This document shows positions 5,880 through 37,666 of a DNA stretch of 64,000 bases, in pieces. This DNA comes from Roseovarius sp. Its GTDB lineage: Bacteria > Pseudomonadota > Alphaproteobacteria > Rhodobacterales > Rhodobacteraceae. Position 1 is the first letter of the stretch; every line of letters begins with the position of its first letter. The stretch is from positions 620,001-684,000 of the forward strand of contig NZ_JAUCYU010000001.1 of assembly GCF_030373445.1 (NCBI RefSeq). Direction: 5' to 3'. The translations under genes and the position numbers were made by a program. The notes under the pieces are model-generated. The model saw only the letters and a list, made by a program, of their open reading frames with translations. It made no database searches and was not told the DNA's origin.

Positions 5880-5985
5880 GCCCGCCCCGCCGACCTCGCG
5901 CGCCCTCCCCGCCCCGGGCCTGACCCGGGGCCTCGCCTCCTCCTCCCCGCCCCGGGCTCGACCCGGGACCTCGCGCCATCGCCTC

Positions 5986-6158
5986 CCCGCCGGGCGAGCG
6001 CCGGCCCGTGGGTAGGCGCTACAACGGTAACGGCCCACGCTTTATCGCGCCGAATACATCTTCCCTCTCAACGTCACGAAACACCCGCCAAATCGCCTGC
6101 CCGCCCTTACAGGCCGGCGCTCGCCCGGCGGCCTCCGGCCTTGTTCCGGGCGTGTGCC
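5986..6158 (-). repeat. Inverted-repeat-flanked intergenic element, copy 1
   Basis: 20-bp perfect arms CCGCCGGGCGAGCGCCGGCC (5987-6006) and its complement (6112-6131); interior and outer flank match copies at 37225 and 25351. Confidence 0.75.
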
Positions 6159-7753: not shown

Positions 7754-7791
7754 GGAATTCCTCTCGGGCAAAGTCTCGGGCGCGGTGGAAA

Positions 7792-7834
7792 CACCGACGC
7801 GATACCGACAAGATACCGACGTTATACCGACGTT
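7792..7834. promoter_or_regulatory. ATACCGAC direct-repeat array, site A (upstream of arfB)
   Basis: CACCGACGCGATACCGACAAGATACCGACGTTATACCGACGTTG; ~11 bp periodicity; near-identical array at 37514. Confidence 0.55.
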
Positions 7835-7850
7835 GAAAACCGGCAAATCA

Positions 7851-22729: not shown

Positions 22730-23301
22730 CGGAGCTTGTCGTCGCCACCGCCCACTGGCGCGCGCTCGACCGCGAGGGCGAGGACAAGTGCCGCCTCAGC
22801 CCCACCGCCAATGGCTGGCTACTGGTCGGCCACGCGCGGTTCCGTGACGAGGGCGGCTTCGCGGCGCTCGACTACGTGGTGCGCTGCGACGAGGCGTGGC
22901 ACACGCTCAGCGCCGACATCGCCGGCATCCATGACGACCGCGAGGTGCGCCTCCACATCCAGCGCGACAACGGCGCGTGGCTCCTGAACGAGGCCGAGCA
23001 ACCCGGCCTCGACGGCGTGCCGGATATCGACCTCTCCTTCACCCCCGCCACCAACCTCATGCCCCTCCGCCGCCTGCTCGAGGGGCGCGAAACCTCGCTC
23101 CAGTCTTCCGCCGCGTGGCTGCACTACCCCGAGCCTGCCCTGCAACGGCTCGACCAGACCTACGCCCGCACCGGCCAGCCCGACGTCATGTCCTACATGG
23201 CCGATCAGACCGGCTACGCCACCCAGCTCACCTTCGACCGGGCCGGCTTCGTCACCCTCTACCCCGAGCTCTGGGAAGGCGAGGTCACCCATGCGGGCTG
23301 A
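22726..23301 (+). CDS. Putative glycolipid-binding-like protein
   Basis: GTG start overlapping the A2M stop; VGHARFRDEGGFAALDYVVRCDEAWHT...DIDLSFTPATNLMPLRRL resembles PF06475-type proteins. Confidence 0.7.
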   Translation: MTELVVATAHWRALDREGEDKCRLSPTANGWLLVGHARFRDEGGFAALDYVVRCDEAWHTLSADIAGIHDDREVRLHIQRDNGAWLLNEAEQPGLDGVPDIDLSFTPATNLMPLRRLLEGRETSLQSSAAWLHYPEPALQRLDQTYARTGQPDVMSYMADQTGYATQLTFDRAGFVTLYPELWEGEVTHAG

Positions 23302-25336
23302 CCGCCTCCTCCTCGCGCTCACCGTCGCGCTCTTCACCGCCGCCCTTGGCCGCGACGCGTTCGATCGCTGGGTCGACGCCACCCAGCTGCCCGTGCTCGC
23401 GTCTGAGACCTCCACCGAGATGCGCGACCGGAACGGCGACCTCCTCCGCCTCTACACCGTCGAAGACGGCCGCTGGCGCCTCTCGGTCAGCCCCGACGCC
23501 GTCGACCGCCGCTATCTCGACATGCTCATCGGCTACGAGGACAAGCGCTTCTACCGCCACGCCGGCGTCGACCCCCGCGCCATGCTCCGCGCGGTCGGCC
23601 AGGCACTCTGGCACGGCGAGGTTGTCTCCGGCGGCTCCACCCTGACCATGCAGGCCGCCCGCCTTCTCGAAGACAGCGGCACCGGCCAGCTCTCCGGCAA
23701 GCTCCGCCAGATACGCGTGGCCCTCGCCCTCGAACGCCGCCTGTCCAAGGACCGCATTCTTCAACTCTACCTCGCCCGCGCGCCCTTCGGCGGCAACCTC
23801 GAAGGCGTCCGCGCGGCGACACTCGCCTATTTCGGCAAGGAACCGAAACGCCTGACCGCGGCCGAGGCCGCCCTCCTCGTGGCCCTCCCCCAATCACCCG
23901 AGGCCCGCCGCCCCGACCGCAACCGCCAAGCCGCCGGCGACGCCCGCGACCGCGTTCTCGAACGGCTCGGCCGCGCCAATCTCCTCAGCCAAAGCGAGAT
24001 TACCGCCGCCTACTCCGAACCCGTCCCCTTCGCCCGCAAACCCTTCCCGGCCCTCGCCCCCCACCTCACCGACCTTGCGCTCGCGGAAAACCCCGTCGCC
24101 CCGCGCCACACGCTCACCCTCGACCGCCCCCTGCAGCAAAGCGTGGAATCGCTCGCCCGCGACAGCCTCCGCACCCTGCCCGATGGCGTCTCCGTCGCCC
24201 TCGTCATCGCCGACCACCGGACGGGCGAGATCCTCGCCTCCGTCGGCTCCGCCAGCTACGCCACGGGCGACGGCCGGCAGGGCTATGTCGACATGACCCG
24301 CGCCCTGCGGTCCCCCGGCTCGACCCTGAAACCGCTGGTCTACGCCATGGGCTTCGACCGCGGCCTCGCCCACCCCCAGACGCTCATCAACGACCGCCCC
24401 GTCGCCTTCGGCAGCTACGCCCCGCAGAACTTCGACGGCGCCTTCCGGGGCGAGCTTTCCGTCACCGACGCCCTGCGCCAGTCGCTCAACATCCCCGTCA
24501 TCCTGCTTTTGAACGAGATCGGGCCGGCCCACCTGATGGACGCCCTGCGCAAATCCGGCCTCTCCCCCGAGCTTCCCGGCGACCAGCCAGGCCTCGCCGT
24601 CGCCCTGGGCGGCGTCGGCATCACCCTCACAGACCTCGTGCAGCTCTACGCCATGCTCGCCAACGAGGGCCGCACCCGCCCCCTCCACTGGCAGGAAACA
24701 CCGTCTACAACCCCCATCCACAACGTCATCAGCCGTTCCGCCGCGTGGCAGGTCGGCGACATCCTCGCCGGCCTCACCCCGCCCCCCGGCGCGCCGCGCG
24801 GGCGCATCGCCTACAAGACCGGCACCTCCTACGGCCACCGCGACGCCTGGGCGGTGGGCTTCGACGGGTCACACGTCGCCGGGGTCTGGATCGGCCGCGC
24901 CGACGGCACGCCGGTGCCCGGCGCCTTCGGCGGCGACCTCGCGGCGCCCATTCTCTTCGAAGCCTTCCAGCGCCTCAAGCCCGAGGCCGACCCCCTGCCG
25001 CCGCCCCCGCCCGAAACGCTCATCGTCTCGACCGCCGAGCTGCCCCAGCCCCTCAAGCGCTTCACCGGGCGCGAGGCCGTCTTCCGCCCTGACGAGGACG
25101 CCCCCAAGCTGGTCTTCCCCCCCTCCGGCGCCCGCCTGCCGGTCGACGGCATCGGCCTCGCCGTCAAACTCCGCGACGGCACGCCGCCCTTTACCTGGAT
25201 GGCCAACGGGGCCGCCGTCCTCACCGGCATCCACCGCCGCGACACCGTGCTGAACGGCCTGTCGCGCGGCTACTCCACCCTCTCGGTGATCGACGCCGAG
25301 GGCCGGGCGGACCGGGTCACCGTCTGGATCGACTAG
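23291..25336 (+). CDS. pbpC: Penicillin-binding protein 1C
   Basis: Transglycosylase GYEDKRFYRHAGVDPRAMLRA, GGSTLTMQAARLL; transpeptidase SPGSTLKPLVYAMG, KTGTSYGHRDAWAVGF; C-terminal PbpC domain. Confidence 0.96.
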   Translation: MRADRLLLALTVALFTAALGRDAFDRWVDATQLPVLASETSTEMRDRNGDLLRLYTVEDGRWRLSVSPDAVDRRYLDMLIGYEDKRFYRHAGVDPRAMLRAVGQALWHGEVVSGGSTLTMQAARLLEDSGTGQLSGKLRQIRVALALERRLSKDRILQLYLARAPFGGNLEGVRAATLAYFGKEPKRLTAAEAALLVALPQSPEARRPDRNRQAAGDARDRVLERLGRANLLSQSEITAAYSEPVPFARKPFPALAPHLTDLALAENPVAPRHTLTLDRPLQQSVESLARDSLRTLPDGVSVALVIADHRTGEILASVGSASYATGDGRQGYVDMTRALRSPGSTLKPLVYAMGFDRGLAHPQTLINDRPVAFGSYAPQNFDGAFRGELSVTDALRQSLNIPVILLLNEIGPAHLMDALRKSGLSPELPGDQPGLAVALGGVGITLTDLVQLYAMLANEGRTRPLHWQETPSTTPIHNVISRSAAWQVGDILAGLTPPPGAPRGRIAYKTGTSYGHRDAWAVGFDGSHVAGVWIGRADGTPVPGAFGGDLAAPILFEAFQRLKPEADPLPPPPPETLIVSTAELPQPLKRFTGREAVFRPDEDAPKLVFPPSGARLPVDGIGLAVKLRDGTPPFTWMANGAAVLTGIHRRDTVLNGLSRGYSTLSVIDAEGRADRVTVWID

Positions 25337-25350
25337 GGACACGTCTCGGA

Positions 25351-25545
25351 GCCGCGCATCGGCGGGCCGTGGTGCGGCGTTCCGACGATAGTGGCGGCCA
25401 CTTTATCCCCGCCAAACACATCCAAGCTCACGACGTCGCGCCTACCTCACCAAATCGCCGTGCCGGGGGGCGGCCCACCTCTCGGCGATTGCAGGCAATC
25501 GCCTGCCGGCCAGCGGTCGATGCGCGGCGGCCTTCGGCCTCGATT
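25351..25545 (-). repeat. Inverted-repeat-flanked intergenic element, copy 3
   Basis: Arms GCCGCGCATCG (25351-25361) / CGATGCGCGGC (25518-25528); outer flank CGGAATCGAGGCCGAAGGCCGCC shared with copy 2, interior shared with copy 1. Confidence 0.7.
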
Positions 25546-25699
25546 CCGCGCTTGGCAATCCCCTTCATCCCACGAAAAACGGCCCCGGAAACCCATCCGA
25601 GGCCGCCTGTCCAGAAATCTCTCTCCACCCGTCCCGGGCTCGGCCCGGGACCTCGGCGACAAGAGTAAGGCCCCGGGTCAGGCCCGCGGCGCGAAACCC

Positions 25700-26875
25700 T
25701 TAAAGCCGCTCGATCGCCAGCGCGATCCCCTGGCCACCGCCGATGCACATGGTAATGAGCGCCGTCTTCCCGCCAATCCGCTCCAGCTCGTACAACGCCT
25801 TCACCGTCAGGATTGCCCCCGTCGCCCCGACAGGGTGCCCCAGCGCAATCGCCCCGCCATTCGGGTTCACCTTGGCCGGGTCCAGCCCCAGCCCCTTGTT
25901 CACGGCAATCGCCTGCGCGGCGAAGGCCTCGTTCGATTCCACCACGTCGAAATCGCCCGCCTTCAGCCCCGTCTTCTCCATCAGCTTCTCGACCGCCGGT
26001 ACCGGGCCGATGCCCATCACCTCGGGCCGCACGCCCGCCACGGCATAGCCCAGCACGCGCGCCTTGGGCTTCAGCCCGGCCTTCTCGGCCGCCTCCGCCC
26101 GCGCCAGCACCACGGCCGCCGCGCCATCGTTGATGCCGCTGGCGTTGCCCGCCGTCACGCTGCCATCCTTCTGGAACGCCGGCCGCAGCCCGGCCAGCCC
26201 CTCGGCGGTGGTCGGCTTGGGGTGCTCATCCGTCTCGAACGGCACCATGTCGCGCTTCACCTTTACCTCGATCGGCGCGATCTGCGACTTGAAATAGCCC
26301 TCCTCGATGGCCTTCGCCGCCCGGTTCTGGCTTTCCAGCGCGAACGCATCCTGGTCCTCGCGGCTCACGTCATGCTCGCCCGCCACGTTCTCTGCGGTCA
26401 CCCCCATGTGCCCCGTCCCGAACGGACAGTTCAGCGCGCCCAGCATCATGTCGAGCGTGCGCACATCACCCATCTTCGCGCCCCAGCGCTGATCGGGGAT
26501 GATGAAGGGCGACCGGCTCATGTTCTCGGCCCCGCCGGCCAGCCCGAACTCGGCATCGCCCAGCATCAGCGCCTGAACCACCGACACGATGGCCTGCGCG
26601 CCCGACCCGCACAGCCGGTTGACGTTCATCGCGGGCGTGGTGTCGGGAATACCCGCCTCGATCATCGCCACCCGCGACAGGTACATGTCGCGCGGTTCGG
26701 TATTGATGACATTGCCGTAAACCACGTGCCCGATCTGCCCCGGCTCGACGCCCGAACGCTCCATCGCGGCCTTGGCCACATGCGCGCCCAGCGCGGTCGG
26801 CGGCGTGCCGGCCAGCGATCCGCCGAAAGTGCCGATGGCGGTACGCGCGCCGTCGAGAAGAACGATGTCGGTCAT
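25700..26875 (-). CDS. Acetyl-CoA acetyltransferase / beta-ketothiolase
   Basis: NRLCGSGAQAIVS, NGGAIALGHPVGATGA, ITMCIGGGQGIALAIE. Confidence 0.95.
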   Translation of the reverse strand: MTDIVLLDGARTAIGTFGGSLAGTPPTALGAHVAKAAMERSGVEPGQIGHVVYGNVINTEPRDMYLSRVAMIEAGIPDTTPAMNVNRLCGSGAQAIVSVVQALMLGDAEFGLAGGAENMSRSPFIIPDQRWGAKMGDVRTLDMMLGALNCPFGTGHMGVTAENVAGEHDVSREDQDAFALESQNRAAKAIEEGYFKSQIAPIEVKVKRDMVPFETDEHPKPTTAEGLAGLRPAFQKDGSVTAGNASGINDGAAAVVLARAEAAEKAGLKPKARVLGYAVAGVRPEVMGIGPVPAVEKLMEKTGLKAGDFDVVESNEAFAAQAIAVNKGLGLDPAKVNPNGGAIALGHPVGATGAILTVKALYELERIGGKTALITMCIGGGQGIALAIERL

Positions 26876-31147: not shown

Positions 31148-31235
31148 TTTTGCTACCCTTCCAGATAAGCGCCCCTCGTTGGGGAGGGGTGTCCCACGGC
31201 AAGGGGTAAGACCCTTCGCGCGCCTTTGCAAGCGC
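31148..31235 (-). promoter_or_regulatory. Candidate structured serC 5' leader (serC-motif-like)
   Basis: Minus strand: AAGGG-TCTTAC-CCCTT (31216-31201), CCCCTC-CCCAAC-GAGGGG (31189-31172), SD GGAAGGG (31162-31156) directly before ATG. Confidence 0.55.
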
Positions 31236-32352: not shown

Positions 32353-33219
32353 ATGTACATCGCCACCCTGATCGCCCCGCGCGGCACGCTGCAGCCCGCG
32401 CTCGTCGACAGCCTGCGCAACGCGTGGGGCGGCGGCAACGCGCAGTGGCTTTCCCCCGACGAGGCCGCCGAATTCCCGATGGAGGCGCTCCCCGGCAACC
32501 GCTGGGAAGTGTGGGACGACCTCCAGAAGGGCGCGACCGACCTCGTCATTCAACCGGCCGAAAACCGCGCCAAGAAGATGCTGCTGGCCGACATGGACAG
32601 CACCATGATCCAGCAGGAATGCATCGACGAGCTGGCCGAGGAAGCCGGCGTCGGCCCCCATGTCCGCGACATCACCGCCCGCGCCATGAACGGCGAGCTG
32701 GACTTCGAAGGCGCGCTGACCGAGCGCGTCGCCCTGCTCAAGGGCCTGCCCGAGACCGTCATCGCCGAGGTGCTCGCCTCCCGCATCACCTACATGCCCG
32801 GCGGGCGCGAACTGCTCTCGACCATGAAGGCCCACGGCGCCCATGCCGCGCTGGTCTCCGGCGGCTTCACCAACTTCACCGCGAAAGTGGCCGAGGAGCT
32901 CGGCTTTCACGAGAACCGTGCCAACACTCTCCTGATCGAGAACGGCACGCTGACGGGCCACGTCGCCCAGCCCATCCTCGGCCGCGACGCCAAGGTGCAG
33001 GCGCTCCACGACATCACCGCCCGCCTCGGGATCACGCCGGCGGACGTCATCGCCGTGGGCGACGGCGCCAACGACCTCGGGATGCTCGAGCTGGCCGGCA
33101 CCGGCGTCGCCCTCCACGCCAAACCCTCCGTCGCCGCCCAATGCGACGTGCGCATCAACCACGGCGACCTGACGGCGCTCCTGTTCCTGCAAGGCTACGC
33201 GCGCAGCGACTTCGCCTGA
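32353..33219 (+). CDS. serB: Phosphoserine phosphatase
   Basis: LLADMDSTMIQQECIDELAEEAGVG...VSGGFTNFT...AVGDGANDLGML. Confidence 0.96.
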   Translation: MYIATLIAPRGTLQPALVDSLRNAWGGGNAQWLSPDEAAEFPMEALPGNRWEVWDDLQKGATDLVIQPAENRAKKMLLADMDSTMIQQECIDELAEEAGVGPHVRDITARAMNGELDFEGALTERVALLKGLPETVIAEVLASRITYMPGGRELLSTMKAHGAHAALVSGGFTNFTAKVAEELGFHENRANTLLIENGTLTGHVAQPILGRDAKVQALHDITARLGITPADVIAVGDGANDLGMLELAGTGVALHAKPSVAAQCDVRINHGDLTALLFLQGYARSDFA

Positions 33220-33235
33220 CCCGTCGGGCGCGCCA

Positions 33236-33281
33236 GCCCGTTTTCTTCGAAGAAAACGGGCCGGAAAATTCCAATTTTCCG
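33236..33281. terminator. Tandem palindromes after serB
   Basis: GCCCGTTTTCTTCGAAGAAAACGGGC (perfect 26-nt palindrome) + CGGAAAATT-CC-AATTTTCCG. Confidence 0.65.
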
Positions 33282-33378
33282 CCCCCCACCCCGCCCGACC
33301 GCCGACCATACCCGCCCCGGGCCTGACCCGGGGCCCCTGACCGGCCGAGGTCCCGGCTCGGAGGCCGGGACGGGCCGG

Positions 33379-33506
33379 CGCCGCCCTCCACACCAAACCC
33401 TCGGTCGCCGCCAAATATGACGTGTATTGCCACGAAGACCGGAAGGCACTCCAGTTCCTGCAGGACCACGCGCGGACAGAGTTCGCCTGGCGAACCGGGC
33501 GCACGA
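33379..33506 (+). pseudogene. serB C-terminal tail remnant
   Basis: Translates AALHTKPSVAAKYDVYCHEDRKALQFLQDHARTEFAW vs serB VALHAKPSVAAQCDVRINHGDLTALLFLQGYARSDFA-stop. Confidence 0.8.
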
Positions 33507-33552
33507 GCCCGTTTTCTTCGAAGAAAACGGGCCGGAAAATTCCAATTTTCCG
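33507..33552. terminator. Second copy of the serB tandem palindromes
   Basis: Same sequence as 33236-33281. Confidence 0.6.
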
Positions 33553-33767
33553 CCCCCCACCCCGCCCGACCGCCGACCATACCCGCCCCGGGCCTGACCC
33601 GGGGCCCCTGACCGGCCGAGGCCCCGGCTCGGAGGCCGGGACGGGCCGGCAGAATCATGCTATCCTTGCCGTCTGGCACACGCCCGGAACAGAGCCACGC
33701 CTCCCCGCGAACCGGCACTCGCCCCGCCTATTGCGGTCCCACCGAAGCCAACCCCAAAAGACCGCGC

Positions 33768-37115: not shown

Positions 37116-37224
37116 GACCGCCCGACAAGTTGCACACCCCGCCCCGGGCCTGACCCGGGGCCTCCGCCGGCCCAAGGTCCCGGCTCGAAGGCCGGGACGG
37201 ATCGAGTGCATCGGCTCGGCATAC

Positions 37225-37396
37225 CACACGCCCGGAATCGAGGCCGAAGGCCGCCGGGCGAGCGCCGGCCCGTCCGGGCGGGCAGGCGCTTTGGCAAGCG
37301 TCGAGCGCCGTTGTCAGGTAGGAAGTACGCGGCACCATAAACTGCCATCCCCCCCGTTGCAGCGCCTCCCCACGGGCCGGCGCTCACCCGGCGGGG
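37225..37396 (+). repeat. Inverted-repeat-flanked intergenic element, copy 2
   Basis: Arms CCGCCGGGCGAGCGCCGGCCCGT (37251-37273) / ACGGGCCGGCGCTCACCCGGCGG (37372-37394), one mismatch. Confidence 0.75.
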
Positions 37397-37513
37397 CGAC
37401 GTCGAGAATGGCTCGGGGCCGACACCGGACCACCACCCCCCGTTGCGCCCCCCACAAGATCCAGCGTGTTGCGCACCGCCCGCCACATCAACCAACGCCT
37501 TCACAGACCCCCG

Positions 37514-37555
37514 CACCGACGCGATACCGACAGAATACCGACGTGATACCGACGT
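37514..37555. promoter_or_regulatory. ATACCGAC direct-repeat array, site B (upstream of YCII-like gene)
   Basis: CACCGACGCGATACCGACAGAATACCGACGTGATACCGACGT; close match to 7792-7834. Confidence 0.55.
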
Positions 37556-37666
37556 CCATTCCCCAGCAAAATATGGCCGTTAACCCCTTCTTCCGGCCGC
37601 TGCCCTGAATCTCCGCCCCCCGCCGTGGTATCCTGCCCCCTCGAACCGCAAGAGGAGGAGCACGAT

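Follow-up and report, generated by a model that had tools for sequence, protein, structure and literature searches.

The window, that is, the whole 64,000-nucleotide stretch of Roseovarius DNA analysed here, carries a palindromic element, named copy 3, between the 3′ ends of two convergent genes. The neighbouring ORFs are predicted to encode a penicillin-binding protein 1C-like protein and an acetyl-CoA C-acetyltransferase-like protein, respectively. On the minus strand, the sequence of copy 3 reads GCGCGGAATCGAGGCCGAAGGCCGCCGCGCATCGAC...CCGATGCGCGGCT (25350-25551). The features of the locus, listed in the order in which copy 3 reads, and the other elements of the window to which we refer below are the following:

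23291-25336, plus strand: predicted penicillin-binding protein 1C-like ORF, separated at its 3′ end by 13 nt from copy 3
25350-25551, minus strand: copy 3, whole element, 202 nt, made of a 163-nt core and an inserted 39-nt module
25546-25551, minus strand: box A of copy 3 (GCGCGG), its first six bases, equal to box C and complementary to box B
25529-25539, minus strand: small 5′ hairpin of copy 3 (GGCC-GAA-GGCC), with the strongest covariation among the helices of the family
25516-25528, minus strand: box B and outer 5′ arm of copy 3 (GCCGCGC-ATCGAC)
25477-25515, minus strand: extra 39-nt hairpin module of copy 3 (CGCTGGCCGGCAGGCGATTGCCTGCAATCGCCGAGAGGT), which only some copies have
25454-25476, minus strand: inner 5′ arm of copy 3 (GGGCCGCCCCCCGGCACGGCGAT)
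25380-25453, minus strand: interior of copy 3, poorly conserved apart from TTGG and GGC-n4-ATAAA
25351-25379, minus strand: 3′ arm of copy 3 (CGCCGCACCACGGCCCGCCGATGCGCGGC), ending in box C (GCGCGGC)
25700-26875, minus strand: predicted acetyl-CoA C-acetyltransferase-like ORF, in convergent orientation on the opposite flank, at 148 nt from copy 3
5988-6151, minus strand: copy 1, whole element, GCCCGG subfamily
37230-37393, plus strand: copy 2, whole element, GCCCGG subfamily
31148-31199: serC leader, above the Rfam gathering score
38103-38215: TPP riboswitch, above the Rfam gathering score
41959-42112: FMN riboswitch, above the Rfam gathering score

The first-pass annotation had placed copy 3 at 25351-25545. 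The element itself is real and the letters quoted for it are present on the minus strand, with an exact match of the arms GCCGCGCATCG / CGATGCGCGGC, but these borders omit the GCGCGG at 25546-25551 and the final T. The arms also continue inwards (GCCGCGCATCGAC..GGGCCG / CGGCCCGCCGATGCGCGGC) with one A-C mismatch.

A fixed, sharp-ended unit in two coexisting subfamilies

A DNA search of the assembly recovered the unit of copy 3 elsewhere in its own genome with E-values down to 1e-54, a recurrence far beyond chance. Using a covariance model built from 16 plain copies, we obtained 66 matches at E<=0.001 in this genome, which correspond to ~55 distinct places once the opposite-strand echoes of the palindrome are removed. 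The aligned copies share a constant architecture of ~164 nt. On the 5′ side, box A (GCGCGG) and AATCNA lead to the small hairpin, box B (GCCGCGC) with the outer arm, and then the inner arm; ~73 nt of interior separate this half from the 3′ arm, which box C (GCGCGGC) closes. Within the interior, four of the five positions of ATAAA were conserved in 106-107 of 107 copies, as listed by alignment column. The borders of the unit are sharp: across 206 copies, conservation dropped from ~1.9 to ~0.2 bits at the 5′ base and was lost within 2 bases at the 3′ end, and outside the ends only a weak preference for C at -3/-2 was seen. Target-site duplication was absent from these 206 copies, since repeats of 2-9 nt abutting the ends were not above the level of shuffled pairing.

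Two subfamilies coexist in the genome. GCGCGG arms were found in 28 of the 47 copies compared, copy 3 among them, and GCCCGG arms in 19, including copies 1 and 2, whose arms are of the type GCCGGGCGAGCGCCGGCC / GGCCGGCGCTCGCCCGGC. When the interiors of these copies were compared alone, 46 out of 47 had their nearest neighbour in a copy sharing their arm type, and all the nearest interiors to that of copy 3 came from GCGCGG-armed copies. The proposal that copy 3 has its interior in common with copy 1 is therefore true only in a loose sense, and the idea that its arms had been replaced has to be given up: arm type and interior go together, as expected of a difference between subfamilies and not of a swap. 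The two subfamilies diverged as whole units. Because arm type and interior travel together, the contrast between copies 1 and 2 and copy 3 counts as a single ancestral difference, and the agreement in 46/47 copies points to amplification from source copies.

Additional modules were found in part of the copies. The 39-nt module of copy 3 had escaped the first-pass annotation. Its core pattern was found nine times in the genome, next to a copy in one case and, in the other eight, inside copies of the element or a shortened derivative of it. A 40-nt version is present in L002 and missing from the orthologous L174 of the sister species G016, with near-identical flanks, which represents the gain or loss of the module. 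A different, double-hairpin module of 44 nt (GTCGCACCGGAGGTGCGCCGCCTATACACGGCACGCCTTTGGCGT) was observed in the inner arm of other copies of the same genome (L020, L025, L027 and L016/L028).

Pairing of the arms and the three boxes

In an alignment of 107 copies, 91.5% of the cells were paired and 35 out of 41 pairs showed changes on both sides, and none of the shuffled or slid versions of this alignment came near the real pairing. In a second set of 95 copies, drawn mainly from plasmids or other genera, 90.0% of the cells were paired and 31 out of 41 pairs had both-sided changes. These values bear out the proposal that pairing of the arms is a kept feature, with Watson-Crick complementarity maintained through repeated changes. 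Since both alignments had been fitted to the model, which favours it, we built a tree-aware null, for which a tree was inferred for each set and every column was simulated on that tree, keeping its number of changes. All column pairs were then scored by an APC-corrected G-test, using an R-scape-like implementation of our own and not R-scape itself. Four pairs in the first set and three in the second reached E<0.05, all of them in the small hairpin or the long stem, and no pair outside the proposed stems was significant in either set, all column pairs having been tested. Pair 15-36 of the small 5′ hairpin reached E=1e-4 and 9e-6 in the two sets, while the interior helices predicted by RNAalifold had no covariation support. 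The covariation check put forward in the first-pass annotation, run in this R-scape-like form, thus agreed with its expectation, the significant pairs under a phylogeny-aware null being all in stems. The case for kept pairing rests on the many independent changes across the wider family and not on the comparison of copies 1 and 2 with copy 3.

The 5′ box repeats the sequence of the 3′ end, so that box B has two possible partners, box A and box C. Box A equals box C, and both are complementary to box B, in the GCGCGG, GCCCGG, GGGCGG and GCACGG types; in the GCCGG type the agreement of the three boxes is partial. The A:B stem was 96% paired, with pair 3-44 being GC in 89 copies, CG in 14 and AU in 1, and its pairs were below significance in the all-pairs tree-aware test. 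The long stem was 95-98% paired and the local palindromes b and c were 88% and 75% paired, respectively. The arms are themselves palindromic (ATCGCC...GGCGAT twice) and, where local and long-range pairing conflict, the long-range pairs are kept, as seen in 17 sequences of the G/A/T/C and G/T/A/C classes (defined at columns 59/76/205/216).

Arms could also co-vary for mutational reasons, if template switching or intramolecular conversion copied the changes of one arm into the other without any selection on structure, in which case the element would be an ordinary dispersed repeat. Such a process would account for the strict Watson-Crick nature of the changes and the scarcity of one-sided intermediates, whatever their kind, for the four ATCGCC/GGCGAT-based segments changing together, for extra modules that are again hairpins of the same words and for the interior deletions between short repeats inside the palindrome that we observed between strains. 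Free conversion, however, should erase the bulges and internal loops of the long stem, as well as the G/A/T/C class, in which long-range pairs hold and local ones break, and both have been kept over many genera. Moreover, box A follows the changes even though it stands apart from the long stem. We consider this explanation unlikely.

DNA or RNA pairing and placement among genes

Nearly all the cells of the supported stems (5965 out of 6240) were Watson-Crick pairs, and only 36 were G-U and 133 A-C. The TPP riboswitch, used as control in the same genome set, presented 24 G-U and 2 A-C in 618 cells. The A-C cells were clustered at a few helix-end positions, and for this reason no conclusion about the strand is drawn from them. 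Placement was determined with genes from a simple codon-model gene caller. Intergenic positions were occupied by 197 of the 199 evaluable copies, with 81 copies between convergent genes versus 11 between divergent ones. Between co-directional neighbours, 51 copies were in sense and 54 in antisense orientation, indicating no strand preference. Within 30 nt of the copies, there were 56 gene 3′ ends and only 5 gene starts.

A structured RNA selected for its folding, such as a 3′ UTR element, an sRNA or a riboswitch-like element, would explain the strong fold, the significant co-variation and the frequent location just behind stop codons. Nevertheless, the stems are almost devoid of G-U pairs, unlike those of the riboswitch control, neither strand is preferred, and Rfam searches of the element at gathering or loose E-value thresholds matched no family. 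Native sequences were also not clearly more stable than their shuffled versions (z=-0.72 for a plain copy and z=-1.86 for copy 3). An RNA origin of the pairing is thus quite improbable, and the RNA fold, one of the two options of the first-pass annotation, was abandoned on account of the near absence of G-U and the lack of a preferred strand. The element does not look like RNA; it looks like mobile DNA. Covariation by itself is no proof of RNA, and the combination of three-way arm complementarity and near-absent G-U pairs provides a direct way to separate selection for DNA pairing from selection for RNA folding.

A bidirectional transcription terminator, or a barrier at mRNA 3′ ends, kept for its function between convergent genes would fit the position of copy 3 and of many other copies, some of them less than 20 nt from each stop codon. 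It would also fit a hairpin that is the same from both strands and sites that can be re-occupied by another subfamily. This explanation is still less probable, because copy 3, the copy examined for such signals, has no terminator-like site and no U-run after the hairpin, and L158/L176 and L164/L192 lie behind a gene with an apparent intrinsic terminator of its own. In addition, the corresponding gene pairs of sister species are without the element, and more than half of the copies are not located between convergent genes.

Spread, empty sites and the search for a mobilising enzyme

The family was present in 34 out of 35 other Roseovarius species (E<=0.001). Across the Rhodobacteraceae, matches were found in at least 105 of 296 other genera (E<=1e-6, one genome per genus), a lower bound because the filters were strict; the element thus occurs in about a third of the tested genera of a large, mostly marine group. 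No match (E<=0.001) was found in 24 genomes, one from each of 24 other families, and a search of sequenced phages gave no match. Records with the element came from Roseovarius, Sediminimonas, Salibaculum, Actibacterium, Natronohydrobacter and Litoreibacter, and it was also found on Pseudosulfitobacter and Salipiger plasmids. A whole element was present at 901-1065 of L077, a short contig binned as a MAG of the gammaproteobacterium Thioalkalivibrio, which represents either transfer or a binning error, the latter being more likely. Clusters of two to three elements in the same orientation, with mixed subfamilies and a spacing of ~240-285 nt, were observed at G027:C6 11603-16309 (L202), L212 and L194.

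Presence and absence of the element at orthologous sites was observed. In the sister species G016, the sites corresponding to copy 3, L003, L008 and L009 are devoid of the entire unit; as this is a between-species comparison with diverged junctions, it provides no exact insertion footprint and does not distinguish gain from loss at each site. Other orthologous sites carry unlike subfamilies (L158/L176, and L164/L192 together with the corresponding sites of L240, L269 and L278). On Pseudosulfitobacter plasmids, the same intergenic site carries oppositely oriented elements in different strains, of the GCGCGG type in one and GCCCGG-like in the other (P. pseudonitzschiae, L282 19860-20260 and L286 450-780; L283 and L290; flanks >95% identical).

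Regarding the enzyme, PF01797 (Y1_Tnp) is absent from the genome of copy 3 (G000) and from the copy-rich G016, G012, G006 and G035. Some species bearing Y1, such as G010 and G020, have few copies; G027 is an exception, combining Y1 with many copies. PF04986 (Y2) is also absent from the genome of copy 3, and a Y2/IS91 mobiliser was rejected there on this basis. ORF clustering revealed no gene family recurring beside the copies, yielding mostly spurious ORFs that overlap the element and unrelated paralogues, and a non-exhaustive inspection of the own-genome matches noticed no longer, autonomous version. The recombinase substrate, the second option of the first-pass annotation, is the better of the two readings, albeit with no enzyme found.

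We compared the element with known systems. Like the REPIN/REP sequences of Pseudomonas and E. coli, which are mobilised by RAYT (a Y1 HUH transposase), it is intergenic, occurs in many copies and has inverted, imperfectly palindromic ends around a spacer that together form one hairpin. It also shares with REPINs the frequent compensatory changes, the two alternative folds (hairpin and clover) and the absence of target duplication (PMC3116915). In contrast to them, our element lives in a genome without RAYT/Y1 and has no GTAG/GTGG guide (GT[AG]G within 10 nt of either end in 0 out of 47 copies). Its unit, furthermore, is fixed at 164 nt, carries an additional hairpin on the 5′ side and the same terminal box at both ends, and conserves ATAAA in its interior; it is also common to a whole family, whereas REPINs are species-specific. 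Since RAYT and the guide motif, two defining features, were both searched for and found missing, REPIN membership was rejected, and it is scarcely credible that copy 3 is a true REPIN. The main text of a comprehensive REP survey contains no mention of Rhodobacter or Roseovarius (PMC12306157).

ERIC/RU elements of enterobacteria resemble the element in size (127-168 bp; RU sizes from PMC2759123) and in their long imperfect palindrome, a likeness of design. They differ in belonging to another bacterial class. ERIC/RU elements share with the element described here their intergenic placement, copies with inserted modules and the lack of a known enzyme; the TA target duplication of ERIC has no counterpart in our element. 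MITEs with terminal inverted repeats, for instance Tn3-derived TIMEs, are likewise non-autonomous and intergenic with inverted ends, and the arms of our element, which start 24 nt inside its 5′ border, are complementary over ~27 bp. However, it has no target-site duplication, the non-exhaustive inspection revealed no related autonomous transposon, its ends are asymmetric, with an extra hairpin on one side, and its subfamilies differ in the arms themselves. A weak likeness to Helitron/IS91 (Y2) elements lies in the sharp ends without target-site duplication and in a short hairpin ~12 nt before one end on the opposite strand; the own genome, as noted, has no Y2 transposase. Integron attC sites were also considered and were rejected because the copies are dispersed and not in arrays.

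Altogether, copy 3 is probably a palindromic DNA element of ~164 bp, non-autonomous and mobile now or in the past, whose subfamilies, each with an arm sequence of its own, have spread through the intergenic DNA of Rhodobacteraceae. The best reading is that of a single-stranded DNA-hairpin-type element, REPIN/ERIC-like in design and yet not a REPIN. Against mobility stand the lack of a linked transposase and of target-site duplication; in addition, no autonomous version was noticed and movement was not directly seen. If the element is mobile DNA, its paired arms would be read at the DNA level by an enzyme that other parts of the cell supply; the structure recognised would most likely be either a single-stranded hairpin like that of REPINs or a cruciform. 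The alternative pairings, A:B in the small hairpin and B:C in the long one, could represent open and closed states of the substrate. Copies may persist mainly behind gene 3′ ends because selection removes insertions near promoters, and the long hairpin in transcripts from either side may, as a secondary effect, protect or separate mRNA 3′ ends.

A more specific version, which we put forward tentatively and regard as rather doubtful, is that an enzyme distinct from both RAYT/Y1 and Y2 moves these Rhodobacteraceae-wide mini-elements in single-stranded form. The box repeated at the ends would compete for its partner (A:B or B:C), switching the element between open and closed, and the arms could drift as long as the three boxes agree.

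Elements of this kind shape intergenic DNA, and their best-known class, the REPINs, is tied to the RAYT transposase. An abundant family without RAYT in most of its copy-rich genomes therefore implies either a new mobilising enzyme or a palindrome that spreads without one. A literature search found no paper describing the element, which is weak evidence of absence. The element is a palindromic mini-element of REPIN-like design that occurs across the family, has its terminal box in duplicate and has no enzyme assigned to it.

The window also contains other repeats. Tandem 11-nt repeats, TACCGACGTNA (CACCGACGCGATACCGACAGAATACCGACGT), are located at 7781-7844 and 37503-37566. The same repeat flanks the element copies L006, L015 and L159 and occurs at ~25 places in the sister species G016, being a second dispersed repeat family. 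Finally, a tandem pair of 221-nt copies with 90% identity at 33159-33650 contains CCCGCCCCGGGCCTGACCCGGGGCC motifs, which recur at 5904-5979 and 37134-37200.
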